Shown in pieces: positions 69 to 41,790 of a DNA stretch of 64,000 bases. Where the stretch lies: the NCBI RefSeq assembly GCF_003860405.1, contig NZ_CP034170.1:248001-312000 (forward strand), read 5' to 3'. Below the pieces are notes generated by a model. That model saw nothing but the letters and a program-made list of their open reading frames with translations, was not told the origin of the DNA and ran no database searches. This stretch comes from Nakamurella antarctica. GTDB lineage: Bacteria > Actinomycetota > Actinomycetes > Mycobacteriales > Nakamurellaceae. A program made the position numbers and the translations under genes. The stretch's first letter is position 1. Every line of letters starts with the position of its first letter.

Positions 69-5105
<5,037 letters not shown>

Positions 5106-5216
5106 ATGCTACGCGTCCACTGTGCAGCTCTGAAAACACAGAGCGAAGCACCCACCTTTCACACTTGACCGTGTGGGTGGGTGCCCAAAAAATCACTCTC
5201 ACAATGTTTTCGCAAA
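5106..5216 (+). other. 23S-5S spacer with processing stems
   Basis: CGCGTCCACTGTGCAG at 5112-5127 pairs exactly with the ITS. A second hairpin pairs GCACCCACC (5148-5156) with GGTGGGTGC (5176-5184), with CACAC/GTGTG pairing inside. Both probably guide release of 23S and 5S rRNA. No gene is seen here. Confidence 0.7.
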
Positions 5217-5334
5217 GTTACGGCAGTCATAGCGTAGGGGAAACGCCCGGTCCCATTCCGAACCCGGAAGCTAAGCCCTACAGCGCCGATGGTACTGCAC
5301 CCGCCAGGGTGTGGGAGAGTAGGACGCTGCCGGA
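5217..5334 (+). rRNA. rrf: 5S ribosomal RNA
   Basis: Starts at GTTACGGCAGTCATAGCG and contains the conserved core CCGGTCCCATTCCGAACCCGG. The end segment GGACGCTGCCGGAC pairs with the start. About 118 bases, the usual actinobacterial size. Last gene of the rRNA operon. Confidence 0.96.
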
Positions 5335-5345
5335 CAAACATTCCC

Positions 5346-23641: not shown

Positions 23642-24097
23642 ATGGCGTTCTGGGACTCACTCAAATCGAAGACCACGGAAATGAGCGCACAGCTCAAGAC
23701 AAAAACCGGTCAATTTAAGAACAAGGAATTGGCCAACGGCTCGATGGCAATGTGCGCGCTGATCGCGGCCGCCGACGGCACGATCGATCCCGAGGAGCGA
23801 CGCAAAACAGCTGCTCTGATCAGCAGCAACGATATTCTGAGCATCTTCGAGCCGTCGGAGCTGAAGGAAAAATTCGATTGGTACTGCGACAAGTTGGCAA
23901 AAGATTATGACTTCGGCAAGGTCGAAGCGATCGCAACTATCGGCAAGCTGAAGTCCAAGCCGGAGCAGGCTAGGGCCGTGATACAGATCGGCATCATCAT
24001 CGGCGGCGCGGACGGTAACTTTGATGCGCACGAGCGTGGGGCCGTCAAGGACGCGTGTTTCGCTGTTGGCATCGCGCCAACTGAATTTGATCTGTAG
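23642..24097 (+). CDS. terB: TerB family tellurite/stress resistance protein
   Basis: 151 residues, all-helical TerB fold with paired acidic motifs: IAAADGTIDPEER and IGGADGNFDAHER, the conserved metal-binding Asp/Glu clusters. The N-terminus (MAFWDSLKSKTTEMSAQLK) is typical. AGAGG precedes the ATG by 8 bases. In Ter systems TerB works at the membrane with TerC-type proteins and TerD domains; here it is about 3.5 kb from the rest of the module. Confidence 0.92.
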   Translation: MAFWDSLKSKTTEMSAQLKTKTGQFKNKELANGSMAMCALIAAADGTIDPEERRKTAALISSNDILSIFEPSELKEKFDWYCDKLAKDYDFGKVEAIATIGKLKSKPEQARAVIQIGIIIGGADGNFDAHERGAVKDACFAVGIAPTEFDL

Positions 24098-27565: not shown

Positions 27566-28414
27566 CTATTTGCTACCGGTTCCCCACTTCATGCCCCAGC
27601 CGTACATCGTGTCGAGATCGCGCTGGCTTCCTTTGATGTACTTAACTTCTCGCTGAACCACCAGCTCCCCGCCGCGATTTTCCAGCAGCGCGATCGCGCA
27701 GACTCGGGACGCGGTGTCGTCGGCGTCGAGGCGGACCTCGATCTGTGGGCCAGTTGCTGGATAGAGGGTGACTACGCCGTTTGCTTGGGCCCACCGCGAT
27801 GCTCCTTGGTAGATCGTGGCGTAGATCAAGATCCGCTTGAAGTAGTGCGGATTGGCCAGGTTGATCATCAAGTTCTCGCCGCCGGTGACGGCTCCGGTGC
27901 GGTCATCGCCGTCCAGTTGGATGTACGGCTCTGAGTTCAGGCTTCCGAAAACTCTTCCGAGCGCTTGGATCCCGCCCTTGCGACCATCGGCAAGCTCGTA
28001 CAGGCATTCCAGGTCAAGGTCGATGGAATCGGCTCCGGCGAGTTTGGCCAGGAAGCCGGCCTTCTTTTCTGGCCGCGCTGTCCAGTTCAAGTTCACCCGC
28101 ATGACGCCCTGACCCTGTCCACCCTTGGTCAGCGAGATCGAGGGGGCGGATTTGGTCAGGGTGATCTTGTTCAGCGACACCGGGCTGGAAGCAACTGGAT
28201 GGACCGCTGCGGCGGCAGGCCCTGCCGAAAAAGGGGTTGCAGCAGGGGTTGCAGTAGGGGGCGCCCCAGGGTGCGGAGCCGCTTCTCCGCGGCTGCCTCG
28301 CGACGGCCGGCGGAAGTCCAACTTCCCCAGGTCTGAGGGCGTCCCCGATGCGGGAATCGGGGGTTCGTCATTGCCGCTATTGGGGCGCGAGGGACGCGAG
28401 TAATCAATGGCCAT
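27566..28414 (-). CDS. terA: TerA-type protein with N-terminal linker and TerD domain
   Basis: 282 residues. A low-complexity Pro/Ala linker (about residues 10-80) is followed by SLNKITLTKSAPSISLTKGG, then a TerD-like beta domain (VNLNWTARP, DSIDLDLECLYEL, PYIQLDGDDRTG, GENLMINL). The Asp-rich stretches match Ca2+-binding positions of TerD domains. ATG at 28414 fits the family start and has GAAAGG upstream. Downstream of the DUF475 membrane gene on the same strand. Confidence 0.87.
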   Translation of the reverse strand: MAIDYSRPSRPNSGNDEPPIPASGTPSDLGKLDFRRPSRGSRGEAAPHPGAPPTATPAATPFSAGPAAAAVHPVASSPVSLNKITLTKSAPSISLTKGGQGQGVMRVNLNWTARPEKKAGFLAKLAGADSIDLDLECLYELADGRKGGIQALGRVFGSLNSEPYIQLDGDDRTGAVTGGENLMINLANPHYFKRILIYATIYQGASRWAQANGVVTLYPATGPQIEVRLDADDTASRVCAIALLENRGGELVVQREVKYIKGSQRDLDTMYGWGMKWGTGSK

Positions 28415-28508
28415 GGTGAAAGTAAACCTTTCTTTGCCGGTGCTGAATATAAGTCTGGGGTCGAGCGAACGCGTGAGCGCCATCTCGACCCCAGGGCAAC
28501 GAGATCTG

Positions 28509-29636
28509 TTATGGCTTGGCGATAGTCACTGAAGGTTCAGCGGCCGCGATACGCCGGTTGCGCATAATGCTGGAGATGAAGGCTGCGCCGATAAACGCGA
28601 CGCCCAGGAGGCCGGTGATGATCTCGCTGACGTGAACCCCGATAGAGATGAACAGGATCGCGGCTAACGCTCCGATCGCCCAGTGCGCACCGTGCTCCAG
28701 GTACACGTAGTCCTGCAGGGTGCCCTTGCGAACAAAGAAAATAGTCAGCGACCGTACGTACATTGCCCCGATCAAACCAAGGCCCAAGGCGATGATGATG
28801 GGGTCGGAGGTGATGGCAAACGCCCCGATAACGCCGTCAAAGGAGAAGGACGCGTCCAACACTTCGAGGTAGAGGAAGAGGAAGAAGGCCGCTTTACCGG
28901 TGGCCTTGACGAGGTTGTTGGGCCCCTTCTTCGTCGTTTCAGCTGTCGTCGGTGCGTCGGCGACGTCGGCACCCCCTGCGGGCTCGTCGCCATCGCCGGT
29001 CTGGGCGCCTGAGAACAGCGACCCCAGTCCGTTGACGGCTAAGTACGTCACCAAGCCGAGCACTCCGGATAGGAGCACCACCTCGGTGTCTTTGGCCAGA
29101 AACTCTGCAGACAGAACGAGAACAATCGCTGCGACAACGACCGAAAGTTGGTCCAACTTGCCGATTTTGGCCAGCGGCTTTTCGAGCCAGGTCAGCCACG
29201 TGATGTCGCGGTCTTCAAAGATGTAATCCAGGAACAGCAGCAACAAGAACATGCCGCCGAATGCCGCGATCTGTGGGTGCGCGGCATTGAGCAGGTATTC
29301 GTAACTCGTCGGATCGTCGCCGGGTCGTTGTTCCAACGCCAGATTTATAGCTTCGATCGGGCCAAGATTAGCGGTGACACCGACAATCAGCAGAGGGAAA
29401 ACTAACCGCATGCCGAAGACGGCGATGACGATGCCGACGGTGAGAAAGATTTTTTGCCAAAAATCACTCATTCGCTGCAGGATGCCCGCGTTGACGACGG
29501 CGTTGTCGAAGGACAATGAAACTTCCATGATCCCGAGAATTACGCACAGGAAGAGTGCGGTCGGCCCGCCATAAAGAAAGGCCACTACGAGCGAGACGGC
29601 CGTAACCGCGTACGACCAGCCGAATACCTTCAACAT
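28509..29636 (-). CDS. DUF475 (TerC-like) integral membrane protein
   Basis: 375 residues with about nine hydrophobic segments. Two symmetric acidic motifs in membrane helices, MEVSLSFDNAVVNAGIL and EVLDASFSFDGVIGAF, are typical of the TerC/DUF475 superfamily and probably bind metal ions. A cytoplasmic Gly/Asp-rich loop lies mid-protein. ATG at 29636 is the family start. Sits between TerA and TerD and is likely the membrane anchor of the Ter module. Confidence 0.88.
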   Translation of the reverse strand: MLKVFGWSYAVTAVSLVVAFLYGGPTALFLCVILGIMEVSLSFDNAVVNAGILQRMSDFWQKIFLTVGIVIAVFGMRLVFPLLIVGVTANLGPIEAINLALEQRPGDDPTSYEYLLNAAHPQIAAFGGMFLLLLFLDYIFEDRDITWLTWLEKPLAKIGKLDQLSVVVAAIVLVLSAEFLAKDTEVVLLSGVLGLVTYLAVNGLGSLFSGAQTGDGDEPAGGADVADAPTTAETTKKGPNNLVKATGKAAFFLFLYLEVLDASFSFDGVIGAFAITSDPIIIALGLGLIGAMYVRSLTIFFVRKGTLQDYVYLEHGAHWAIGALAAILFISIGVHVSEIITGLLGVAFIGAAFISSIMRNRRIAAAEPSVTIAKP

Positions 29637-29718
29637 AACGAGAGGGCGCCTTTCAATCGGAAAGCGCCTGCGGAGGAAGCACATACCGGCGCACGGAACT
29701 CACACTGCGGACATAGGT

Positions 29719-29755
29719 AGGTCCCGGTGTCGCTGTGGCAGCGACACCGGGACCT
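29719..29755 (-). terminator. Perfect 17-bp stem-loop after terD
   Basis: AGGTCCCGGTGTCGCTG pairs exactly with CAGCGACACCGGGACCT around a TGG loop, 22 bases beyond the terD stop and before the DUF475 gene. No T-run; an I-shaped actinobacterial terminator or attenuator that would separate terD from the downstream genes. Confidence 0.75.
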
Positions 29756-29776
29756 GAGGAAGATCTGAGAAATCAA

Positions 29777-30352
29777 TTACAGATTGACGCCGAAGTCACG
29801 GGCAATTCCGGCCAGACCGGATGCGTACCCCTGGCCGGTGGCGCGGAACTTCCATTCCGCGCCGTTGCGGTAGAGCTCGCCAAAGACCATGGCGGTCTCG
29901 GTGGAGGCATCCTCGGAAAGGTCGTAGCGCGCGAGTTCGGTGCCGTTGCTGGCATCGACTACGCGAATGTAGGCATTGCGGACCTGGCCGAAGCTCTGGC
30001 TGCGAGCATCCGCGTCGTAAATGGAGACGGGGAATGCGATCGAGTCGATCTCGGCGGGTACCGCGGCGAGGTTCACGTTGATGACCTCGTCGTCGCCGTC
30101 GCCCTCACCAGTCAGGTTGTCACCGGTGTGTTCGATGGAGCCGTCCGGCGATTTTAAGTTGTTGAAGAACACGAAATGCTTGTCGGACAGAATCCTTTTG
30201 GCGGTGTCCAGGCCGAGGGCGCTGGCGTCGAGGTCGAAGTCTGTTCCGGTGGTGGTCCGGATGTCCCAACCCAGGCCGACAGAAACTGCCGTCAGGTTTG
30301 GTGCCACCTTGGTCAGGGAGACGTTGCCGCCTTTAGTCAAGCTCACGCTCAT
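29777..30352 (-). CDS. terD: TerD family protein (copy 1)
   Basis: 191 residues, a textbook Ter[80 protein letters not shown]. The Asp clusters bind Ca2+ in studied homologues. It confers or supports tellurite and oxidative stress tolerance in known systems. About 75 percent identical by eye to the second copy about 7.3 kb away. Confidence 0.96.
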   Translation of the reverse strand: MSVSLTKGGNVSLTKVAPNLTAVSVGLGWDIRTTTGTDFDLDASALGLDTAKRILSDKHFVFFNNLKSPDGSIEHTGDNLTGEGDGDDEVINVNLAAVPAEIDSIAFPVSIYDADARSQSFGQVRNAYIRVVDASNGTELARYDLSEDASTETAMVFGELYRNGAEWKFRATGQGYASGLAGIARDFGVNL

Positions 30353-30707
30353 TACTGGGTCCTCCTCATAAGAAAATCACTGGGTTTACGGGTGCCGCCG
30401 ACGTTAACTGCGGCGCGAAATGGGTCTGTCTGAATTCGTCAATTCCGCACCTCTCCGACCACCGGAATCGTACACGGCCGGGTTTTTCACCACAGGCAAT
30501 TCACTACTTTGCTCTCCTTCTGGGGTCGCTGTTACGAGCGGTAACTCGGGGTGGTTCTCGATGATTGAACGCCGGAAGGCCGTGCAAGGTTCCCGGTGTT
30601 CTCGCCGTTCCGGGCGCTGGGCGGATGAGAGCGCACTCCCACAGGTGGGATTGGGCTCAGGGCGGCCCCACCGGTAACGACCCGTCGTAGCAGTAGTGTT
30701 TGAGGCA
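30353..30707. other. Divergent promoter region between terD and the helical Ter-linked gene
   Basis: About 355 bases. AGGAGGACC lies just before the terD start on its own strand. The rest holds short ORFs without ribosome binding sites; no other gene is seen. Confidence 0.5.
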
Positions 30708-31949
30708 ATGTCAACACCGTGGTTCGGGCGCCGGAACAGAAGTCCCGAAGACCTAGCCGCTGCAGAGTCCGCCCGCGACGGCGCTGTTGCCGCATTCCTG
30801 GACCTGGACACCCGGCAGAGCTACATAACCGATGCGCTGCGGCCGCTGCAGAGCTCAGACCCGATGACGGCGGCGAGCGCTATTCTTGCCGCTTGGAAAA
30901 AGGTCGAACAGAAATGTTTTGACGCCAACTCGCAATACTTGACGATCTCGCAGCAGTACGCGCTGGAGGATGCGCTGGGGCAGCCGACTGCCGTGGAGCT
31001 GCCAGTCGCTGCACAAGCCTTCGCCAATACCCACCGAACCTTGGCCCAGGCCGCAACCGCGATCAACGATTTTTACACTGACAACCGCCGCGCCCTCGAC
31101 CAAGCGCGCAGTGCTGCGTCGGAGATCCCGAAACTAGCTGAAGCTGGTGTGGCTCAGGCGTTGTCGATTCGAGCGCGACTGACCGGGGTGCACAGTGACG
31201 TCGCGGGTTTTGCATCGGTGCGGGGGGCAGCTGCCGAGCTGGAAACCGGCGTCGCCGACCTCGACCGCGCGCTGGTGGCTGGCTCGCTGGAAGGTATCCA
31301 AGCAGCCACCGCAGCGATTACTGCAGCGGGTGAACAGATTGATGCGGCGGCGGCGGCAGCTCGCACCGCTGGTGATCGGGCAGCGACGGCCATTTCCTCC
31401 GTCCGCACCCGGATCAGTGCTGTCACCACTCGCACCGAACGGCTACCGGGCGTTCGGTCGATCCTGCTGCGCGAGTTCAGCGCCCCGAACTCGGCGGATC
31501 TTGCAGGCAATGTCGAGGTTGCGGCGCGCGAATTGGCCGCGGGCGAACACGCGTGGGAAGAGGCGTCACAAGCGCTTCGCTCGGGCGATGCGGAGAAATC
31601 ACTGAGCCTGCTTGCAGATTCTCGCGAGCACCTCCATGCTGCAAGCCAGGCATGTGACGACGTCACGAACCGGCTGGAAACGCTGAAAGCAGTCAAGGCG
31701 GACCCGAGCGGCCCCGAACGTCAAACCAGGTTCCGAATCCGAGATGCACAGCGTCTGGTCGTGGACCGCGGCCTCACCAGCCAATGGGGTTCGGTGCTGG
31801 ATGCGCAGTCCGCGCGGGTCGACCGCGCACTCCACGCTTTGACAGGGGTGCACCCGGACTATTGGGCGTACGTCCGCGAATTGGACGCGGTGACAGAGTT
31901 CGTCAAGGGTGTCGTTGAGCGAATCAGAGAGCAAGCCCGACACAGCTAG
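30708..31949 (+). CDS. Helical (coiled-coil) protein in the Ter module
   Basis: About 413 residues, Ala/Arg/Glu-rich and helical throughout, with long segments like coiled coil (for example ATAAITAAGEQIDAAAAAAR), and no membrane segment. No enzyme motif is recognised. The C-terminus is more conserved-looking (WGSVLDAQSARVDRALHAL, HPDYWAYVRELD). GTG at 30696 is an alternative start; ATG is given with GAGG two bases ahead. Its place between terD and the ATP-grasp gene suggests a structural or partner role in the Ter complex. Confidence 0.75.
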   Translation: MSTPWFGRRNRSPEDLAAAESARDGAVAAFLDLDTRQSYITDALRPLQSSDPMTAASAILAAWKKVEQKCFDANSQYLTISQQYALEDALGQPTAVELPVAAQAFANTHRTLAQAATAINDFYTDNRRALDQARSAASEIPKLAEAGVAQALSIRARLTGVHSDVAGFASVRGAAAELETGVADLDRALVAGSLEGIQAATAAITAAGEQIDAAAAAARTAGDRAATAISSVRTRISAVTTRTERLPGVRSILLREFSAPNSADLAGNVEVAARELAAGEHAWEEASQALRSGDAEKSLSLLADSREHLHAASQACDDVTNRLETLKAVKADPSGPERQTRFRIRDAQRLVVDRGLTSQWGSVLDAQSARVDRALHALTGVHPDYWAYVRELDAVTEFVKGVVERIREQARHS

Positions 31950-31952
31950 TCA

Positions 31953-32981
31953 TCATATTTTGGAACCCATCTCCACCGATGACGACACCGTGACGTAGCG
32001 AGCACCCAAGACCGGCTTGAGTTCTTCCTGTTCCTCGCCCAGAGCGAGCTTGACCGCGGCCCAGGGCATGTTCAGTTTGGCCATCGCTGTTTGATAGAGG
32101 CCACCGGAGGGGCGGGTGTTGATTTCGAGCAAAACCGCCTGCCCCTGCCATTGGCGAAATTGGACATTGACTAATCCGTCCAGACCGAACTCGGCCACCA
32201 GCAACCGGGCGGCCTGCATGGTCTCTTCCGGTGCGCTGAGGAATCGGTCTCGACCGACTTTGGAGCGGGGGACTGCCACTACCGTTTTGCCGTGGTCGGC
32301 CAGCACGTCGACACTCACTTCGGGACTGTCCAAATAGGGCATGACCAGCAGCGGGTTGATCGAGACACCCGAATCCTGTGCCTGTTTCAAAGCGAAGACG
32401 AACTGAGCAGCGGTGGCCGTCGGATTCAACGGTCCCATCAGCTCGGTGAGCGTGGGCTCGTTTTCGGCAATGAATCGGACCCCGTCGGCTCCGACACCGC
32501 GAGCGGGTTTTACTACGATCGGCTTGCCGAGGGGACGAAGGTCCTCCAGTGCCTGTTCAAACTCTGCGACACAAGCTACTTTTCGCCAGGGTGGGACCAG
32601 TTCGTAATGCTCACCGAGGGCCTGGTAGGTGGCGCATTTATCGGTGAGCAACTCGATGGACTCCGCACTGGGGCAGATTACCGCGACACCCATTTCGGCA
32701 AACTCGTTGGCCCGCAACGCGATGGCGAGCTGTTCGTAGACGGGAAGGAAGACCTTGATCCGGTGGTCCCGGCAAAACTGAAGGGCGTAGTCCACATAGG
32801 CCGAACCTGTCAGTGTCGACTCCATGAACCGGTGGTCGCACCCGGTCAGCATGGGCGAAGCGGCGTCCTTGTGACTGCCGTAGAGGGTGATTTTCCGCCT
32901 GTCCGGGTTGTTACGAAGCAGCTCCAAGACATGCACCGTGGTGGCATAATTGCGGTTGAGCCAAATAGCGAGACTGGGCAC
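31953..32981 (-). CDS. ATP-grasp enzyme of the Ter-linked module
   Basis: 342 residues. N-terminal pre-ATP-grasp Rossmann-like domain (MPSLAIWLNRNYATTVHVLELL), then the ATP-grasp core: PIVVKPARGVGADGV (ATP loop and Lys), LLVMPYLDSPEVSVDVL, and the Mg2+ site VLLEINTRPSGG. It would ligate an acid to an amine with ATP. In known Ter clusters this family is paired with PRTases, a CitE-like protein and a HAD phosphatase. Divergent from that four-gene operon, 129 bases away. Confidence 0.88.
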   Translation of the reverse strand: MPSLAIWLNRNYATTVHVLELLRNNPDRRKITLYGSHKDAASPMLTGCDHRFMESTLTGSAYVDYALQFCRDHRIKVFLPVYEQLAIALRANEFAEMGVAVICPSAESIELLTDKCATYQALGEHYELVPPWRKVACVAEFEQALEDLRPLGKPIVVKPARGVGADGVRFIAENEPTLTELMGPLNPTATAAQFVFALKQAQDSGVSINPLLVMPYLDSPEVSVDVLADHGKTVVAVPRSKVGRDRFLSAPEETMQAARLLVAEFGLDGLVNVQFRQWQGQAVLLEINTRPSGGLYQTAMAKLNMPWAAVKLALGEEQEELKPVLGARYVTVSSSVEMGSKI

Positions 32982-33110
32982 AATAACTCCTAGCCGTGGG
33001 CTGTGGGGGAAGTGAGCGTCGGTGGCAGTTTCTTGCCGTTGCCTTGCGGCGCCCTGCCGTACCCCTGCACTCGAAGCCTAGCGCTTTGGGTCCGTACCAG
33101 AAAGAAGCGC

Positions 33111-34259
33111 GTGCGCCACTTCGATCATTTAGACCCTGCCGTCCGTCAGGAGCTGTTCTACCTGGACCCGGCAGAGTTCAATCGGGACAGCGGCATCGAC
33201 CTGCTCGCTTCCGCGCTGGGGGCGACGTTGTATGTCCCCGGTACCCGCGAGAACCTCGTGGCGGCCATCCATCGACGCGCGAAGGCCGGGGTGCGCTCCA
33301 TCGTGATCGACCTCGAGGATGCTGTCGAAGACTCGCGTGTTGATGAGGCGATGAGTCACGCCATCGCCGCGATCACCGAGCTTTCGCAGACCGGCATAGA
33401 CGCGATGCTCTTCATTCGGGTGCGCACCGCGGAACATATCCAAGAACTTTCCGACCGGCTCACCGATGCCCGTGCCTTATACGGCTTCGTCATTCCAAAG
33501 TTTTCTCCGTGGACAGGGCAAGCATTTCTCGACGCAGCTGTGGAATGCGGTGTGGCACATGGACTTCGCATGCTGGTGATGCCCGTGATTGAAACCCCGG
33601 AAGCGATCTACCGCGAATCCCGCAACGCGACCCTTGCGGGTATTCGCGAGCTATTGAACAGGTATCGAGACAACGTGTTGGCGGTTCGCTTCGGCGCAAC
33701 TGACCTGTGCGGATTGTTCGGCATCCGCCGCGAACGCGACCTCACAATTTATGACGTCAAGGTGGTGGCTGACCTCATCTCCGACACGGTGAACCACCTC
33801 GGCCGTGGCGACGACTCCAGCTTTCTGATCACTGGCCCAGTGTGGGAGTACTTCGCCACGCACGAACGCCTCTTCCGCCCCCAACTGCGAACCACACCCT
33901 TTATGGACCACGACGCGCAGGCGCTCCGGCACAGCCTGATCACCAAGGACTTCGACGACTTGATCCGGGAAGCGTTGCTGGACAGGGCGAACGGCTTGCA
34001 TGGCAAGACCGTGATCCACCCTTCCCACGTCGCTCCCATTCATGCACTTTCTGTCATCTCATTTGAGGAGTACACCGATGCGGTGGAAATTTTGGAATCC
34101 GGCACCGGTGCCAAGGCTTCGACGTATCGGGACAAGATGAACGAGGCGGGCCCCCACCGGTATTGGGCAGAGCAAGTATTACGGCGAGCCAGCGCGTTTG
34201 GGGTTGCCAGCGAGCAGACTTCGTTTGTCGATGTGCTGTCAGCCTTGGTCAGCGCGTGA
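33111..34259 (+). CDS. CitE/HpcH-like TIM-barrel protein of the Ter module
   Basis: 382 residues from the GTG at 33111; the in-frame ORF upstream is not conserved. Family motifs: GATLYVPGTRENL, IVIDLEDAVEDSRVDEA (Mg2+-binding Asp/Glu), ALYGFVIPKF, VMPVIETPEAIY and VRFGATDLCGLFGI. A C-terminal part carries GKTVIHPSHVAPIHAL. Likely cleaves or forms a C-C bond of an acyl or keto acid with Mg2+. First of four genes joined by 4-, 4- and 1-base stop-start overlaps. Confidence 0.9.
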   Translation: MRHFDHLDPAVRQELFYLDPAEFNRDSGIDLLASALGATLYVPGTRENLVAAIHRRAKAGVRSIVIDLEDAVEDSRVDEAMSHAIAAITELSQTGIDAMLFIRVRTAEHIQELSDRLTDARALYGFVIPKFSPWTGQAFLDAAVECGVAHGLRMLVMPVIETPEAIYRESRNATLAGIRELLNRYRDNVLAVRFGATDLCGLFGIRRERDLTIYDVKVVADLISDTVNHLGRGDDSSFLITGPVWEYFATHERLFRPQLRTTPFMDHDAQALRHSLITKDFDDLIREALLDRANGLHGKTVIHPSHVAPIHALSVISFEEYTDAVEILESGTGAKASTYRDKMNEAGPHRYWAEQVLRRASAFGVASEQTSFVDVLSALVSA

Positions 34260-35689
34260 GTGAACGTCCCGCGGTTCAGGCCGCAGCCCCCCGGCATGCC
34301 GAGCAATGGGTGCAGCGCATGTTCGGGGTCGGGCTGACGACGGGCGATTCGCAGCTTGGCTGGGCGCTGAGTGACCTGGTCGGGCTCGCACTACGACGAA
34401 ACCCGCGTCGCGCACACCTGCTGGTTTCGTCGATTCTCGGCAAACACGTCCCTGTAGATCCTGATCTGGTCCACGGCACGGGGATGTTGCTGGGTGCGCT
34501 GGTGTCCTACTCGCTTGCAGGCGTTGAGCTGCCGGAAGACGTGAAAACAGTTGCAGTAGAGGCATTATCGGGTGCAAAGCCGGACGGTTTGGTCAGGCTG
34601 TTGGAACGGCCAGCCTTCGATCACCCCGACGTGTTGGTGGTCGGATTTGCCGAGACGGCCACCGGGCTGGGGCATTGCGTGGCCCAGGCTCTTGGCGCTG
34701 GCGTGTACTTGCACTCGACCCGCCGCGCCGTGCCGGGCGTGCAGGTGGTGGGCACGTTTCAGGAGGGACACTCACACGCGACTGATCACCTACTTCAACC
34801 CCTGCCAGGGACGATGTTATCGCCGGCTGGCGTGATGGTGCTCGTCGACGACGAGTTCTCCACGGGGAAGACTGCTATGGAGACCATCGCCGAAATGCAT
34901 CGGCTCTTCCCTCGACCGCACTACGTGGTAGCAGCGCTCGTGGACCTACGGGCCAGCAGCGACCAGGAGGCGATGGCGTCATTCGCGACGCAGCTTGGTA
35001 TCCAGATCGACGTGGTGGCAATCGTTTCCGGGAGTGTGGACCTGCCTCTCGGATTAGCGGCTGCTGCGGCGGCACATATCGCGACTGCAGGTGTCAGCAT
35101 CGTTCGGGCTGGGTTGCTGCCAGTGCAGCAGGAACGGGCCCGTCCGTACACGGAGTTGCGCTTGCCCTGGCCCGCGACGGTCCCGGACGGCGGCAGGCAC
35201 GGCTTCCTGCTCACCGACCGGGAGCCTTTCGAGATTGCTCTTGAAGCAGCGAGTGCGATTCTGCTGCAGGCGCTCTCGCCTCACGCCCACCATGTGCTGG
35301 TGCTGGGAACCGAGGAGCTGATGTACCTGCCGATGCGGCTGGCTGGGGCGATCAGTAGTACCCCTGGCCACATCTGCAGATTCCAAACCACCACCCGCTC
35401 GCCGATCCACGTCGAAGATGCGGACGGATATCCAGTTCGTCGCGGATTCGCTTTTGAATCCCCCGAGAAAGATCCGGCAGCCCATCGCTACCTCTACAAC
35501 GCGGATTGGGACGGCGCGGAGGCGGATGCCATCGTGCTGGTGATCGACGAGGCGATGGACACCGTGGATCTGCGCAGCGAGCATGGGTTGCTGCCGGTCC
35601 TGGAGTCTGTCGGAGTCCCAGTGGTGCTGGCAATCGTGACCGGCGCTTCCCCCGAGGCCCTTGGCCAGAATCGAATTGCTCACTCATGA
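34256..35689 (+). CDS. Phosphoribosyltransferase with TRSP domain
   Basis: 477 residues; GTG start overlaps the previous stop (GTGA). PRTase fold with PRPP loop VMVLVDDEFSTGKTAMETI and hood segment GFAETATGLGHCVAQALG. A C-terminal TRSP domain shows the name-giving motif TTTRSPIHV plus GFAFESPEKDP. In Ter systems such PRTase-TRSP proteins are predicted to make a nucleoside-like compound. The base or acceptor is unknown. Confidence 0.9.
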   Translation: MSERPAVQAAAPRHAEQWVQRMFGVGLTTGDSQLGWALSDLVGLALRRNPRRAHLLVSSILGKHVPVDPDLVHGTGMLLGALVSYSLAGVELPEDVKTVAVEALSGAKPDGLVRLLERPAFDHPDVLVVGFAETATGLGHCVAQALGAGVYLHSTRRAVPGVQVVGTFQEGHSHATDHLLQPLPGTMLSPAGVMVLVDDEFSTGKTAMETIAEMHRLFPRPHYVVAALVDLRASSDQEAMASFATQLGIQIDVVAIVSGSVDLPLGLAAAAAAHIATAGVSIVRAGLLPVQQERARPYTELRLPWPATVPDGGRHGFLLTDREPFEIALEAASAILLQALSPHAHHVLVLGTEELMYLPMRLAGAISSTPGHICRFQTTTRSPIHVEDADGYPVRRGFAFESPEKDPAAHRYLYNADWDGAEADAIVLVIDEAMDTVDLRSEHGLLPVLESVGVPVVLAIVTGASPEALGQNRIAHS

Positions 35690-36843
35690 CGGATAAAACG
35701 CTGCTTCCCGCGCCACTTTTCGGCCCCGAGTTCGGGTCGTACGCACCCGACGAGGTGGCGTGGCTCCTCAAGGACCTGTCCGCGGTGGATCTGGAAGCAG
35801 ACATCGCCGAGCGGGAGCAGCAGATTCAATCGGGGAGGGCGCACTACGCAGAGTCACTGCCGATCGAATACCAGCCGGATCAGCAGTACCAGGAGCTGTT
35901 CGAGTCGGTGCTTGCGCAGAGTGCCCCCAGATTGGCGACGGCCGTCGGGCTGATAACGGAGCTGGTGTTGGCAGAGCGCGGCTCCGATATCGTGCTGGTC
36001 TCGCTGGCCCGAGCCGGCACGCCGGTGGGTATTTTGATGAAGCGGTGGGCGGCACACACCTACGGATTGAATCTGCCGCATTATGCGGTGTCGATTGTGC
36101 GTGGCCGCGGCATCGACCGGGTGGCATTGGAATACCTTGCGGCACATCACGATCCGGCGAGCATCGTCTTCGTCGACGGGTGGACGGGCAAGGGTGCGAT
36201 CGCTCGGGAGCTGGCGGAGGCACTCGACGCGGTGGCTAGGCAGGGTGGTCCTCGGTTCAATGCACGGCTCGCCGTCCTCGCCGACCCGGGTAGTTGCGTC
36301 ACTGACTATGGGACTCGGGACGATTTCCTGATCGCCTCGGCGTGTCTGAATTCCACGGTATCCGGACTGATTTCTCGAACAGTGTTGAACAATGCGCTCA
36401 TCGGCCCGGGTGAATTTCACGGTGCGAAGTTCTACTCCGAGCTCGCTGCCAGCGACAGGTCGGTTGCGTTTCTCGATGCGGTGGGCGCCGAGTTCGGTTC
36501 CGTATCCACGGATGTCGTGTCTGCGCTGCCCGGGTTGCTAGCCAGCGATCGAACGCCGACATGGGCCGGCTGGGCAGCGGTGGACAAAATACGCGCTGAC
36601 TACGGGATCGAATCTGTGAACTTTGTCAAGCCGGGAGTGGGGGAGACCACCCGGGTATTGCTGCGGCGAGTGCCCTGGCGGATTCTGGTGAGGGTTGCGA
36701 AAGCGCTTGACCACGAACACATTCGGCTCCTGGCAGCCGCCCGGGGTGTGCCCGTTGAAGTGATTCCGGACTTACCCTACGCCTGCGTCGGGTTGATCCG
36801 GACCCTGCCCACCGATACCGCCGCCGAACGAGGAGAAGCCTGA
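35686..36843 (+). CDS. StiP/PRTase-like protein of the Ter module
   Basis: 385 residues; ATG overlaps the previous stop (ATGA). It has a PRTase-like core: IVLVSLARAGTPVGILMKRW, YAVSIVRGRGIDRVAL, and VFVDGWTGKGAIARELAEAL (PRPP-type loop). Often annotated as cysteine protease StiP or PRTase_1; the loop motif argues for a phosphoribosyltransferase. The C-terminal region (NFVKPGVGETTRVLLRR) resembles partner-binding parts of the family. Confidence 0.88.
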   Translation: MTDKTLLPAPLFGPEFGSYAPDEVAWLLKDLSAVDLEADIAEREQQIQSGRAHYAESLPIEYQPDQQYQELFESVLAQSAPRLATAVGLITELVLAERGSDIVLVSLARAGTPVGILMKRWAAHTYGLNLPHYAVSIVRGRGIDRVALEYLAAHHDPASIVFVDGWTGKGAIARELAEALDAVARQGGPRFNARLAVLADPGSCVTDYGTRDDFLIASACLNSTVSGLISRTVLNNALIGPGEFHGAKFYSELAASDRSVAFLDAVGAEFGSVSTDVVSALPGLLASDRTPTWAGWAAVDKIRADYGIESVNFVKPGVGETTRVLLRRVPWRILVRVAKALDHEHIRLLAAARGVPVEVIPDLPYACVGLIRTLPTDTAAERGEA

Positions 36844-37664
36844 TGCCGCGCCCCATGGTGGTCACCGACCTAGACCGCACCATGATTTTCTCACCCGCGG
36901 CACTTCAGTTCCCTGGCGCGGATATTGAGGCGCCGCAATTGGTGTCGGTGGAGGTGCTGGATGGTCGTCCCAGTGCGTTTATGACGGTGCGGGCCGCGGA
37001 GCAGCTGTCCGAGCTGTCCGCCCTCACCCAGGTGGTGCCGTGCACCACCCGCACGCTCGAGCAGTTCTCCAGGGTGCATCTACCCCTGTCCGATAATGGA
37101 CAGGACCGGTACGCGATCGCGAGCAACGGAGGGACGATCGTTGTCAACGGCCATCCCGACAAAGGCTGGCGCCGAAATTTGGAAAAATCGATCGCTGACT
37201 CGGCTGCTCCGTTGCACGAGATCAAAGACGAGATCAAGGCCCATATCAGTGATGATTGGGTGATTAAGCGACGCAGCGCGGATCACCTTTTTTGCTATCT
37301 GGTGGTCGACTTGGCGAAGGTCCCCGAAGGATTCATCGAGCAGTGGCGGCACTGGTGCGCAGAGCGCGGCTGGCGAATCTCCGTGCAGGGCCGCAAGATC
37401 TACTCGATCCCGGAGCAGCTCTCAAAGTCTGCGGCAATGCTGGAGGTTGCCGGGCGAACGGGTACCGACCATATGATCGCCGCTGGCGACGGTGGACTTG
37501 ATGCGGACATGCTAGAAGCAGCCGATCGTGGTATCCGGCCCAGGCACGGCGAACTAGCGCAGATGGACTGGAACCGGCCGCATGTCGACGTCACGCAAGC
37601 GTCCGGGGTGCTGGCTGGTGAGGAGATGGTGCGGTGGTTCGTCGACCAGGTGGACGCCTACTAG
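36843..37664 (+). CDS. HAD superfamily phosphatase of the Ter module
   Basis: 273 residues, HAD-IIB type. Motif I VVTDLDRTMI (DxD variant with the second Asp conserved), motif II CTTRTLEQF, Lys motif SKSAAMLEV, motif III-IV AAGDGGLDADML. The ATG shares one base with the previous stop (TGATG). Probably dephosphorylates the product of the two PRTases in the same operon. Confidence 0.9.
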   Translation: MPRPMVVTDLDRTMIFSPAALQFPGADIEAPQLVSVEVLDGRPSAFMTVRAAEQLSELSALTQVVPCTTRTLEQFSRVHLPLSDNGQDRYAIASNGGTIVVNGHPDKGWRRNLEKSIADSAAPLHEIKDEIKAHISDDWVIKRRSADHLFCYLVVDLAKVPEGFIEQWRHWCAERGWRISVQGRKIYSIPEQLSKSAAMLEVAGRTGTDHMIAAGDGGLDADMLEAADRGIRPRHGELAQMDWNRPHVDVTQASGVLAGEEMVRWFVDQVDAY

Positions 37665-37695
37665 CGCACCCGCTGCGAGGCCCGTCGGGCTTGGC

Positions 37696-38271
37696 TTAAA
37701 TGTTGACGCCGTAGTCGCGAGCGATGCCGCCCAGACCTGACGCGTAGCCCTGGCCGACCGCGCGAAACTTCCACTCGACGCCATTACGGTAGAGCTCGCC
37801 AAAAATCATCGCTGTCTCGGTGGAGGCGTCTTCGCCGAGGTCGAACCTGGCGATCTCGGAACCGCTGTTGCGATCCACCACACGGATAAAAGCGTTGCTG
37901 ACCTGGCCGAAGGACTGCGACCGGGCCAGTGCGTCGTGGATCGACACCGGAAAAACTATGGCGGCGACAGTAGCCGGAACCGCTGGCAGCGACACGTTGA
38001 TGCTTTCGTCGTCCCCTTCGCCCTCGCCTGTGAGGTTGTCGCCCGTGTGCTCGACGCTGCCGTCGGGAGAGCGGAGGTTGTTGTAGAAGACAAAATGTTG
38101 ATCGGAGAGAACTCGACGATCAGACCCGACCAGCAGCGCGCTGGCGTCCAAGTCGAAGTCGATGCCGGTGGTGGCGCGGACATCCCAGCCCAGACCGATG
38201 CTGACCTCGGTCAGGTTGGGCACCTGCTTGGTCAACGAGACGTTGCCGCCCTTAGCAAGGCTCACTGTCAT
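37696..38271 (-). CDS. terD: TerD family protein (copy 2)
   Basis: 191 residues, with [50 protein letters not shown] and [17 protein letters not shown] at 38271 chosen for family fit with AAAGGA 7 bases upstream. Converges on the HAD phosphatase, 31 bases apart. With copy 1 it brackets the ATP-grasp/PRTase set, so the two TerD genes mark the edges of the module. Confidence 0.95.
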
Positions 38272-38377: not shown

Positions 38378-39391
38378 TCAGACTTCCTCGGTCCACGCCA
38401 GCAACGCCTCAACAGGAAGGGCATTGATCACGCGGTCAGCACTGATTCCCGCCCGTTGCGCGCGATCTGCGCCATAGGCTTGGAAGTCCAGCTGGCCGGG
38501 GGCGTGCGCGTCCGTGTCGATACTGAACAAGCAGCCTGCCGCTACCGCTTCAGCGAGTAGCTCCATGGGCGGGTCGAGCCGCTCTGGGCGGCTGTTGATC
38601 TCGACCGCCACGGACTGTTCGGCGCAGGCGGCGAAGATCGCGGCAGAGTCGAACTGGCTCGGGGGTCGCTGCCCTCGCCCCCCGGCGATCAGTCGCCCCG
38701 TGCAGTGACCGAGGATGTCGGTGTGTGGGTTTTCGATAGCGGTGAGCATCCGAGCCGTCATGACGGCGCTGGTCGAGCGCAGCTTGGAATGTACTGAGGC
38801 GACAACGATATCGACCCTAGCCAGCAGCTCGTCGGTTTGATCGAGGGTGCCGTCCTCGTTGATATCGCACTCGATTCCGCTTAAAAGCCGGAATGGGGCG
38901 AGGCGCTCGTTGAGGGATGCCACGATGTCGAGCTGTTGCTCCAGCCGCTCGGCGGTGAGGCCGTGGGCGATCGTCAGGCGCGGCGAGTGGTCGGTCAACG
39001 CTAGGTACTCGTGGCCCAGTTCCAGGGCTGTGATGGCCATTTCCTCGATGGGGCTGCCGCCGTCGCTCCAGTCGCTGTGCGAATGCAGGTCGCCGCGCAG
39101 CGCTGCCAGCAGGTCTTCGCCGCCGCTGACCACAGGCGTTGCGTTGGCTTCCAGGTCGGCCAAATAGTCCGGGACCCGGCCAGCCACAGCCTGTTCCACC
39201 ACCAGCGCGGTCTTCGCACCAATGCCAGGTAGACCCGTAAGTGTGCCGGACCTTGCCTTCCGGGCGACATCTTGCGGACTCAGCTCGGCGATGGTGGTCG
39301 CCGCGGTTCGGAATGCTTTGACCCGGTAAGTGGGCGCCAATTGCCGTTCCAAGAGGAACGAAATTCTTCGTAGCGCTGCCACCGGGTCCAT
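38378..39391 (-). CDS. PHP-domain phosphoesterase with helix-hairpin-helix (PolX C-terminal like)
   Basis: 337 residues. An N-terminal HhH-like segment ([38 protein letters not shown]) precedes a PHP domain with [46 protein letters not shown] and DTDAHAP metal ligands. Resembles the C-terminal half of family X DNA polymerases without the polymerase. Divergent from a LigD-type polymerase gene, so a role in DNA end repair is plausible. Confidence 0.9.
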
Positions 39392-39477
39392 GCAGGCAAG
39401 GGTAGCGCCCGGGGCGGACGGGGGTATGAGGGGTGCGACGCCACGTGGGCACGGGTATGCGCAACTACGATCGGGCT

Positions 39478-40524
39478 ATGAGCGCAGCAAAGGTTCTCCA
39501 GGTGCCGGGCCCCGACGACGTGGTGCGGGAGGTGCGGATCTCCTCGCCGGACCGCGTCATGTGGACTGCCGAGTCCGCCGGGAAAGCCATCACCAAATGG
39601 GACCTGGCCACGTACGTCGCGTCGGTCGCCGAGCCGATGATGCGCGCTCTGGGCAACAGACCCGTGACGCTGCAACGCTTCCCAGACGGCGTCAAGGGGG
39701 AGATGTTTTATTCGAAGAACCCGCCTCGCGGTGTTCCGGCGTGGGCGAGGACCGTCATCTGCACCTATCCTTCGGCGCGCAGCCACCCGCAGCTCGTCGT
39801 GGACGAGATTGCCACCGCCATCTGGGCTGTCCAGATGGGCACGGTGACATTTCACCCGTGGCCGGTTCGCACGGAAAATAACGACAACCCGGACGAGTTT
39901 CGGATCGACCTTGATCCGCAACCCGGTCGGGCTTTCGCCGATGTCGTTGAGGCGGCCATGGCGCTGCGAGAAGTGATGCAAGGCATTGGTTTAACGCCTT
40001 TCGTGAAGACATCCGGCAACAGGGGACTGCACATCTTTGCGCGGATTGCACCAGACTACGAGTTTCTTGAAGTGCGGCATGGCGTCATTGGGGTGGCCAG
40101 GGAGCTGGAACGCAGATTGCCTGACCTGGTGACAACCGCGTGGTGGAAGGAGGAACGCGGAGACAAGATCTTCGTCGACTTCAACCAGGCCAGCCGCGAC
40201 CGCACCATAGCTTCCGCGTACAGCCCTCGCCCACTCGAGGGGGCGCCCGTGTCGATGCCGGTGGGCTGGACGCGCCTTGGCGACATCGCGCCGTTGGATT
40301 TCACAGTCCTCACCGTGCCGGCGATGGTGGCCGGGCACGGCGATGCCTGGGCCGAGATGGACGATTCCGTAGGCGATGTCGCGGGCGCCCTTGCTCTCTG
40401 GGAAGAAGACATCAGCGAAAGAGGCTTAGGTGAGATGAGTTTCCCGCCGGACTACCCGAAGATGCCCGGTGAGCCTCCCCGCGTCCAACCCAGCAAGAAG
40501 GTCGCGTCGCACTGGGATGAGTGA
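39478..40524 (+). CDS. Stand-alone LigD-type polymerase/primase (PolDom)
   Basis: 348 residues, archaeo-eukaryotic primase fold. GEMFYSKNPPRGVP, FRIDLDPQPG (catalytic Asp pair), VKTSGNRGLHIF (nucleotide-binding His) and RTIASAYSPRPL are diagnostic. No ligase domain is fused. ATG at 39478 is preferred because the family start follows. Converges, with a 4-base gap, on a LigC-type ligase, the same pairing as mycobacterial Rv3730c/Rv3731. No Ku is in the window. Confidence 0.92.
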   Translation: MSAAKVLQVPGPDDVVREVRISSPDRVMWTAESAGKAITKWDLATYVASVAEPMMRALGNRPVTLQRFPDGVKGEMFYSKNPPRGVPAWARTVICTYPSARSHPQLVVDEIATAIWAVQMGTVTFHPWPVRTENNDNPDEFRIDLDPQPGRAFADVVEAAMALREVMQGIGLTPFVKTSGNRGLHIFARIAPDYEFLEVRHGVIGVARELERRLPDLVTTAWWKEERGDKIFVDFNQASRDRTIASAYSPRPLEGAPVSMPVGWTRLGDIAPLDFTVLTVPAMVAGHGDAWAEMDDSVGDVAGALALWEEDISERGLGEMSFPPDYPKMPGEPPRVQPSKKVASHWDE

Positions 40525-40528
40525 CGGC

Positions 40529-41587
40529 TTAAGTCAGAACGGAATTCAAGTCGTAGGCGATGGGCCGGTCGACTTGGCTGACGAGGCAAGAAGAGGCGTC
40601 GCGGTCTGGGCGCCAGCGCAGGAAAGTCACCGAGTGCCGAAAGCGCAGGCCTTCCATCTGGTCGAACTTGACCTCGACGACGCGCTCGGGTCGCAGCCGC
40701 ACAAAGCTGACGTCTTTGTTGGCGCTGAATCTGCTGCGCTCGCCTGCGCCCGTGACGGTTTCGCCTGCTTCGTTCACCTCAACCCACGGCGCTAGCTCGT
40801 CAATGAGTTCCAGTCGTTTCACGTTCGTGAAGGCGGCGATCCCGCCGACGCCGATCAGTTCTGCGTCATCGGTGTAGAGGCCTAGTAGTAGGGAGCCCAC
40901 TCCCTTGCCGGATTTGTGGATCCGGTAACCGACAACCACAGCGTCGGCGGTTCGAGAGTGTTTGATCTTCAACATGGATCGCTTGCCGCTTTGGTAGGCA
41001 AGCGCCAGCGGTTTAGCGATAATCCCGTCAAGGCCCGCGCCTTCAAAGGCCTCAAACCACTGCTGGGCCTGATCCGCATCTTTCGTCACCCGCGTGAGGT
41101 GGATCGGAGCATCAGCAGGCACGGAGGCTAACGCAGCTTCCAGTCGCGTCCGCCGATCGCCGAAGGGGACGTCCATCAGGCTGGCATCCTCGAGCGCTAG
41201 CAGGTCGAAACAGACGAGTTCGGCGGGGGTTTCGACCGAAAGCTTCGCAATGCGGGACTCTGCGGGGTGGATTCGCTGGGACAGGTTCTCCCAATCCAGC
41301 TTCTGGTTTCCGGCCGCCCCAGAGCGCACCACGATCTCCGCATCGATGGCGCACCTTCTGGGCAGGTGCTCAAGTACGGCGGCGACCACCTCGGGAAAGT
41401 AGCGGGTCAAGGGCTTTTGGCCGCGACTGGCTAACTCCACCTCGTCGCCATCGCGGAGCACGATGCACCGAAACCCATCCCACTTGGGCTCATACAGCAA
41501 TCCGCCAGTCACCCAGTCCTGCGCTGGCACCTGGGGAACGGCCTTGGCCAGCATGGGAGAGACGGGTAGTTCGATGGGCAGCTTCAT
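40529..41587 (-). CDS. ligC: ATP-dependent DNA ligase, LigC type
   Basis: 352 residues. Adenylation Lys motif EPKWDGFRCIV, motif III CAIDAEIVV, motif IV AGLDGIIAKP, motif V MLKIKHSRTADAVVVGYR, and a C-terminal OB-fold ending in FRHSVTFLRWRPD. Seals nicks and some double-strand ends in gap-filling repair with its neighbour polymerase. ATG at 41587 follows the family start. Confidence 0.93.
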   Translation of the reverse strand: MKLPIELPVSPMLAKAVPQVPAQDWVTGGLLYEPKWDGFRCIVLRDGDEVELASRGQKPLTRYFPEVVAAVLEHLPRRCAIDAEIVVRSGAAGNQKLDWENLSQRIHPAESRIAKLSVETPAELVCFDLLALEDASLMDVPFGDRRTRLEAALASVPADAPIHLTRVTKDADQAQQWFEAFEGAGLDGIIAKPLALAYQSGKRSMLKIKHSRTADAVVVGYRIHKSGKGVGSLLLGLYTDDAELIGVGGIAAFTNVKRLELIDELAPWVEVNEAGETVTGAGERSRFSANKDVSFVRLRPERVVEVKFDQMEGLRFRHSVTFLRWRPDRDASSCLVSQVDRPIAYDLNSVLT

Positions 41588-41790
41588 CACAGCATTGTTG
41601 CTCAAGCGGGATATGACGTGTTGTTGGGAGTCGGGTCTGGCGCCCGGGTCGGGCATGCGGGCTTTACCGCGCGTCACGCCGGTCAGTGACTACAGCGAGG
41701 ATGGGGGCAGGGGAGGGCGGCCATAATGGTGTTTCACGATATCCCTGTCGCGCTGCAGCTGAGATCTATCACCCGTTGTGGAGGCTTTTG

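Follow-up and report, generated by a model that had tools for sequence, protein, structure and literature searches.

A biosynthetic module of enzyme genes accompanying the bacterial Ter genes was reportedly defined by comparative genomics in 2012 (Anantharaman, Iyer and Aravind). Passages in the literature indicate that the Ter genes themselves had been tied to resistance to tellurite, phages and colicins by 1995 and that the metabolite of the enzyme module is still a prediction. In these passages a nucleoside-like metabolite is given as the predicted product of the cluster (PMC8115787), and its phosphoribosyltransferases (PRTases) and HAD enzymes are described as producing derivatives of nucleosides or nucleotides as a signal, possibly sensed by TerB and TerD, such an enzyme set being reported also in phage ME3 (PMC7824862). 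A further paper words the nucleoside-like product as shown, yet cites the same 2012 article (PMC12054061); the passages of these three papers on the Ter module name no product. Here we analyze a locus of this kind in a 64,000-nucleotide stretch of Nakamurella antarctica DNA (contig NZ_CP034170.1, positions 248,001 to 312,000; "the window"), in which gene overlaps and co-occurrence across genomes show that the genes for two PRTase-family proteins, a HAD phosphatase and a CitE-like lyase form a single unit.

A second system bears on the possible chemistry. The CriT and CrpP domains of Bcs3, the capsule polymerase of Haemophilus influenzae type b (Hib), are described as a phosphoribosyl pyrophosphate (PRPP)-dependent O-ribosyltransferase and a HAD phosphatase, respectively (passages of PMC10299916), and pairs of a glycan PRTase with a HAD enzyme are presented as a family of ribofuranose-adding enzymes (passages of PMC11127046). 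Our literature search found no paper joining glycan PRTase or ribofuranose chemistry with StiP, the second PRTase-family protein of the locus, or with tellurite.

Judged by its gene content, the locus is a complete copy of the Ter biosynthetic module, i.e., a new copy of a known system with a predicted product. The PRTase_2-TRSP, StiP-PELOTA and C-C_Bond_Lyase (CitE-like) genes lie together, all above the Pfam cut-offs, and two TerD genes and a DUF475 gene (TerC superfamily) share the cluster with them (Table 1). Pfam's own descriptions link ATPgrasp_Ter and StiP to Ter or to tellurite, and the PRTase_2, TRSP and C-C_Bond_Lyase families were presumably defined on the same Ter operons.

The E. 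coli IncHI2-type plasmid pMCR_WCHEC050613 likewise carries ATPgrasp_Ter, PRTase_2-TRSP, StiP-PELOTA_1, C-C_Bond_Lyase and a HAD-like protein beside ter genes, but there the order is ATP-grasp, PRTase-TRSP, HAD, StiP, CitE-like on a single strand, whereas the window has CitE-like, PRTase-TRSP, StiP, HAD and a divergent ATP-grasp gene, with DUF475 in place of the plasmid TerC; the proteins of the two systems are 26–38% identical over their aligned parts. The same gene run is found, by annotation, in a Pseudomonas plasmid, while DNA of the enterobacterial module is present in 954 of 5,426 complete E. coli genomes and StiP relatives in 2,567 of 72,556 plasmid records (tblastn). The Acinetobacter jumbo phage vB_AbaM_ME3 also has a single run of genes for PRTase_2, HAD (by annotation and motifs), StiP (annotated as a phosphoribosyl transferase), TerD and a DUF475-like protein, but the whole phage record gave no match to the C-C lyase or to ATPgrasp_Ter. 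Ahead of the Ter run, this phage has genes with the annotations NAD synthetase and Appr-1-p processing protein (L021 31–2362), a hint of ADP-ribose-type chemistry in the vicinity. StiP, PRTase, C-C lyase and three TerD genes are also present in MT836648.1, an unverified 15-kb scaffold of faecal origin that is filed as "Bacteriophage sp." but may be bacterial.

Overlap and co-occurrence of the four enzyme genes

All genes named in a preliminary description of the locus are present, and the overlaps it listed were confirmed by direct reading: GTGA at 34256–34259 (CitE-like/PRTase-TRSP), ATGA at 35686–35689 (PRTase-TRSP/StiP) and TGATG at 36841–36845 (StiP/HAD). That description held that the translational coupling shows the four enzymes to act in one pathway; the overlaps alone are insufficient for such a conclusion, which is strengthened by the shared distribution of the genes, by the fusion of the two PRTases in one frame and by the correlated divergence of the four proteins.

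Indeed, in a panel of 61 genomes (the window's own, consisting of one 3.38-Mb contig, and 60 relatives) StiP, PRTase_2 over its cut-off and C-C lyase at E<1e-100 occur in the identical 22 genomes, the window's own included; the chance that two random sets of 22 out of 61 coincide is 4.5e-17, if kinship is ignored. At E≤0.001 PRTase_2 is found in 24 of the 61 genomes, 22 being over the cut-off, and the C-C lyase in 49, with 43 over the cut-off via other CitE-type proteins, of which only the 22 at E<1e-100 were counted. PF15632 (ATPgrasp_Ter) matches nearly all genomes (60 of 61, and 13 of 14 controls) via other ATP-grasp proteins, so that only strong matches near StiP were considered; defined in this way, a ligase gene no more than 5 kb away from StiP is found in 6 of the 22 StiP genomes, all in the window's genus and including its own. 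In the phylum StiP is patchy, with 11 of 246 genomes over the cut-off.

The 92 StiP loci that were gathered, in which some genome loci may repeat named ones, are mostly from Streptomyces and Nocardiaceae because the scan for relatives gave the closest 80 of at least 596; among the matches listed, the closest StiP relatives are actinobacterial. PRTase_2-TRSP is found in all 92 loci, HAD in 91, the CitE-like gene in 89 and TerD in 88. The sole locus without a HAD match is the unverified scaffold mentioned above, and the three without a CitE-like gene are phage ME3 and two loci cut by contig ends (L060 and L076). The order CitE-like, PRTase-TRSP, StiP, HAD on one strand is kept in 85 of the 88 complete loci, many of them close relatives; two gammaproteobacterial plasmids have PRTase, HAD, StiP, CitE-like and one further locus has the lyase on the opposite strand. 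Overlaps of start and stop join HAD to the end of StiP in 82 and PRTase-TRSP to the end of the CitE-like gene in 42 of these 88 loci; among the 22 unfused loci, 14 have a StiP start that overlaps the end of the PRTase gene. Finally, the pairwise distances of the four enzymes are correlated at 0.95–0.97 (72 loci; permutation maximum 0.22), a value to which shared host phylogeny contributes. The core of the module would appear to comprise two PRTases and a HAD phosphatase, the CitE-like gene being nearly always present and the ATP-grasp gene optional.

These distributions also bear on the idea that ordinary nucleotide salvage genes lie beside ter genes by chance, to which we give next to no credence. 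The PRTase_2 fold does resemble that of adenine phosphoribosyltransferase (APRT), and the preliminary description had named a better match to ordinary salvage families as the outcome that would speak against a Ter-linked module; however, neither PRTase-TRSP nor StiP of the window matches the general PRTase family PF00156 at E 0.01, both matching instead the PRTase_2 and StiP families, their phyletic sets are identical (the same 22 of 61 genomes) and TerD is nearby in nearly every locus. The PRTase_2 of ME3 does match PF00156 (E 3.5e-6).

The two phosphoribosyltransferase-family proteins

StiP is usually annotated as a cysteine protease, which is its Pfam name and that of most RefSeq records. 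These names are what favors such an activity, which we regard as hardly credible: no cysteine column is invariant in either 11 diverse or 31 aligned sequences (the three best columns hold another residue in 3 of 11 each in the diverse set and in 3, 3 and 2 of 31 in the alignment), the modelled fold is that of a PRTase, the ARAGxP and DGWTGKG motifs are conserved and the ME3 copy is annotated as a PRTase. The literature search found no experimental source for a protease activity of StiP.

The AlphaFold model of StiP (pLDDT 90.7, pTM 0.91) was compared with known structures by Foldseek, the top 1000 chains being re-aligned by VIA-align. The two best matches after re-alignment are both Bcs3 (Z 11.2 and 10.8, 203 residues, rmsd 4.2–4.4), in a region, residues 636–966, that corresponds to the CriT domain, and are followed by PyrR and HGPRT-type chains (Z 8.1–9.8). 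The 50 VIA-align rows listed comprise 2 Bcs3, 1 hypothetical protein and 47 PRTase or PyrR entries; six of the latter, whose titles are incomplete, are taken to be such enzymes, and 1ufr was identified by name. The StiP core superposes on PyrR and HGPRT-type PRTases but differs in having extra helices, a PELOTA domain and a PRPP loop that looks shortened (FVDGWTGKG, with a single Asp). Two blocks are invariant in StiP, S106-x-x-R109-A-G-x-P and F162-V-D164-G-W-(T)-G-K-G, and are read as a pyrophosphate loop and this shortened PRPP loop. Model and structure search support StiP being a PRTase rather than a protease, as the preliminary description had proposed; this is probably not new in itself, given the annotation of the ME3 copy and an earlier naming of the family as a PRTase in Pfam.

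The likeness to CriT concerns both structure and partner enzyme, CriT being the best structural match of StiP and both being paired with a HAD enzyme, which in the window is encoded directly after StiP. On the other hand, the identity in the superposition is 7%, no sequence match to Bcs3 was obtained, and no capsule context was seen, though none was searched for; D144 and D164 of StiP would be candidates, by inference only, for the split acidic pair D680/E818 of CriT. Since shared helices may by themselves account for the margin of 1.4 Z over PyrR, the likeness is taken as a lead about chemistry and not as membership.

The second protein, PRTase_2-TRSP, has the acidic PRPP loop (DDE..STGxT, with D198, D199, E200, T203, G204 and T206 invariant in 23 sequences) and the PRTase fold of a type I PRTase, the PRTase_2 part of a Nocardia fusion model superposing on the APRT structure 1l1r with Z 12.7 and rmsd 3.0 over 163 residues. 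The TRSP region (residues 300–460 of the window protein) aligns in register with PRTase_2 by hhalign (VLG.EE with VVGFAET, TTRSP with STRR, VIDE..DT with VDDE.ST), with a score of 22.1 vs a maximum of 21.6 in 60 shuffled controls and a probability of 4.7; it is possibly a degenerate duplicate of the PRTase domain, a lead and not a result.

PRTase-TRSP and StiP, split in the window, share one stop-free frame in 70 of the 92 loci, or 68 if two doubtful ones are set aside (L029, frameshifted, and L078, in which the PRTase extends over two frames). The Nocardia uniformis fusion (L036 8591–11131, 847 aa) contains PRTase_2, TRSP, StiP and PELOTA_1 in this order and starts, as in the window, at a GTGA overlap with the CitE-like gene; its overall model is moderate (pLDDT 75.7, pTM 0.57), the TRSP and StiP parts being barely tested by structure match, and therefore no claim is made on domain packing. 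On a quick StiP tree, for which 51 of 101 rows were kept (L026–L028 were left out, as was any row with 88% or more identity to a retained one in the same state), the fused and split states require 10 changes, at least 3 of them forced by well supported branches, gain and loss not being separable; the window's own genus has both forms, and several of its genomes group with a Nakamurella assembly (SH-aLRT 89–90). The fusion may have been described already by Anantharaman and others in 2012.

Partner enzymes and a candidate pathway

The HAD protein retains all four motifs, with D9, D11, T68, K195, D216 and D220 invariant in 21 sequences. Its Pseudomonas aeruginosa plasmid homologue, encoded between PRTase_2 and StiP, has a near-identical relative of solved structure (PDB 6d3v/6cj0; 531.7 bits over 251 aa), which its depositors named trehalose phosphatase and which is reportedly the subject of a 2018 article. 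The window HAD alone aligns to this structure with E 1.8e-7; the HAD profile gives E 1.9e-67, a value that overstates the match since the profile includes the plasmid HAD, and the E. coli plasmid HAD matches sugar-phosphatase families only below their cut-offs. Although these data could be taken to mean that the HAD is a trehalose-6-phosphate phosphatase and that the operon protects via sugar or compatible-solute metabolism, this seems to us very unlikely, since the HAD accompanies PRTases in 91 of the 92 StiP loci, HAD enzymes are often promiscuous and the name is that of the depositors. The CitE-like protein keeps L104-E-D, E197 and D234, the last two of which we take for metal ligands by analogy with CitE enzymes.

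We consider it rather probable that these enzymes constitute a PRPP-fed pathway, with two ribosyl transfers and a dephosphorylation, yielding a small ribosylated signal for a TerD/TerC-type complex. StiP would carry out the second PRPP-dependent transfer and the HAD would remove the 5′-phosphate; the CitE-like enzyme would form or cleave a C–C bond of the acceptor, and systems that possess the ATP-grasp ligase would use it to add an acyl or amino-acid group. During chemical or phage stress, the ribosylated product would then signal via TerD/TerA and the membrane protein DUF475.

Several points weigh against such a pathway. The substrates and the product of the Ter enzymes are predictions, as is protection from stress or phages. 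Moreover, the PRTase fold modelled for StiP would not prove activity, and Foldseek's own eight best rows are cysteine desulfurase-type enzymes (TM ~0.2, rmsd ~21), three of which are the only rows at E≤0.001, the PRTases following from rank 9 with E≥0.0018. The canonical vicinal acidic pair is absent from the StiP PRPP loop and, as D164 is the single invariant acidic residue of this loop, StiP is said here to work like a type I PRTase and is not filed as a canonical member. The StiP alignment (31 sequences) is mostly actinobacterial, and sequence profiles gave no link between StiP and PRTase_2 (probability 0.3; 17 of 60 column-shuffled controls equal the score). Lastly, as a protein nearly identical to the P. 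aeruginosa plasmid HAD bears the name trehalose phosphatase, the substrate of the HAD may be a different sugar phosphate.

The PELOTA domain of StiP raises the question of whether the product is a free metabolite at all. PELOTA_1 is matched in the window (Table 1), in the E. coli plasmid (E 6.8e-25) and in phage ME3 (E 1.6e-14), and the best PDB rows of the StiP profile over this domain are the ribosomal proteins S12/L7Ae/eL8, although not significantly (best six, E 0.15–0.40). This L7Ae-like domain could thus bring the StiP PRTase to RNA, the ribosylated product being then an RNA; the neighbouring HAD, CitE-like and ATP-grasp enzymes are, however, typical of small-molecule chemistry, and RNA modification appears to us unlikely. 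Quite improbable, in our opinion, is the more specific proposal that StiP is a CriT-like O-phosphoribosyltransferase which, together with the APRT-like PRTase, places two PRPP riboses on one acceptor by N-ribosylation of a base followed by O-ribosylation of the nucleoside, or of a PELOTA-held RNA, the HAD acting as a phosphatase like CrpP, so that the Ter metabolite would be an O-ribosylated (disaccharide) nucleoside. If true, such a nucleoside would define a novel class of stress or antiphage signals in bacteria.

Returning to the PRPP-fed pathway, what is gained is structural support for StiP as a PRTase, a recurrent PRTase fusion, a reduced core of two PRTases and a HAD, and a chemical precedent; the support for StiP, the repeated fusion and the CriT/CrpP precedent narrow the search for the predicted nucleoside-like metabolite to a small set of PRPP-based assays in vitro. 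The original observation is sound, and its interpretation was broadly right, albeit too firmly stated.

The locus and its surroundings

Table 1. Ter-linked genes of the window (positions in the window)
Feature	Coordinates	Strand	Evidence and remarks
TerB-like gene	23642–24097	+	PF05099 E 2.7e-21; upstream of the main cluster and apart from it
TerA-like protein with C-terminal TerD-like domain	27566–28483	-	weak PF02342, E 4.1e-4
DUF475 membrane protein, TerC superfamily	28509–29684	-	PF04332 E 7.5e-130; PF03741 (TerC) E 6.7e-16
TerD, left-hand	29777–30352	-	PF02342 E 7.9e-84
417-aa protein without family name, Ter-linked	30696–31949	+	homologues in StiP loci
ATPgrasp_Ter ligase	31953–32981	-	PF15632 E 3.7e-37; divergent from the operon
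CitE-like C-C bond lyase	33111–34259 (ORF from 33003)	+	PF15617 E 2.7e-107
PRTase_2-TRSP phosphoribosyltransferase	34256–35689	+	PF15609 E 1.2e-61; PF12500 E 1.9e-34
StiP-PELOTA_1, PRTase-fold protein	35686–36843	+	PF11202 E 2.3e-106; PF15608 E 2.9e-34
HAD phosphatase	36843–37664	+	TIGR01484 (HAD-IIB) E 1.6e-5, below its cut-off; intact motifs
TerD, right-hand (second)	37696–38271 (ORF to 38424)	-	PF02342 E 1.8e-82; domain from residue 52

The CitE-like protein resembles its homologues from residue 36–37 onwards, the point at which the two annotated plasmid genes start, and its own start was therefore moved to GTG 33111, probably the true one (382 aa). This start lies 129 bases from that of the divergent ATP-grasp gene, which, as a consequence, falls outside the translationally coupled unit; the preliminary description was right in placing an ATP-grasp gene at the locus, but the gene is divergent and, as seen above, close to StiP in few genomes. 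The right-hand TerD start should likewise be moved, to 38271, the domain start with which the end given in that description agrees. The TerA-like protein scores 20.3 bits with PF02342, below the Pfam cut-off of 25.3, and is 47% identical over 204 aa to a plasmid gene of the TerD family (L007 8937–10094) that, judged from its position, is taken as terA.

The preliminary description mentioned neither the TerB-like gene, which lies outside its range, nor the 417-aa gene between TerD and the ATP-grasp gene. The product of the latter, which looks helical from its sequence, has no Pfam, NCBIfam or PADLOC family. Homologues occur in 74 of the 92 StiP loci and in 12 of the 22 StiP genomes vs 2 of the 39 without StiP (Fisher p 2e-5, kinship ignored; a weak match in G034, without StiP, at E 9.8e-4 was left out). 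In these two genomes without StiP the gene is within 5 kb of a TerD gene and is therefore considered part of the Ter system rather than of the enzymes.

NCBIfam has no family for PRTase-TRSP, StiP, the TerA-like protein or either TerD, and the PADLOC anti-phage library gave no match for any of ten locus proteins. Between 30300 and 38500 no match to a sigma-70-like promoter consensus was found, and the four terminator-like sites do not exceed the number in shuffled sequences (mean 6.1).

Elsewhere in the window there is an rRNA operon at 70–5335, and the genes between the TerB-like gene and the main cluster are presumably a regulator and sugar-acid-type genes. Adjoining the Ter genes, at 38378–41677, a PHP-domain/helix-hairpin-helix protein comes first and is followed by open reading frames that we take to be LigD-type primase-like and ATP-dependent DNA ligase-like, possibly an end-joining set. 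The window's own genome has a second Ter locus (L024 11731–15195, i.e., C1:445730–449194) encoding a 558-aa protein with two TerD stretches and a 589-aa protein with a single one, both having long unassigned parts, with a weakly ATPase-like gene nearby, and a further TerD is found at C1:1696476.

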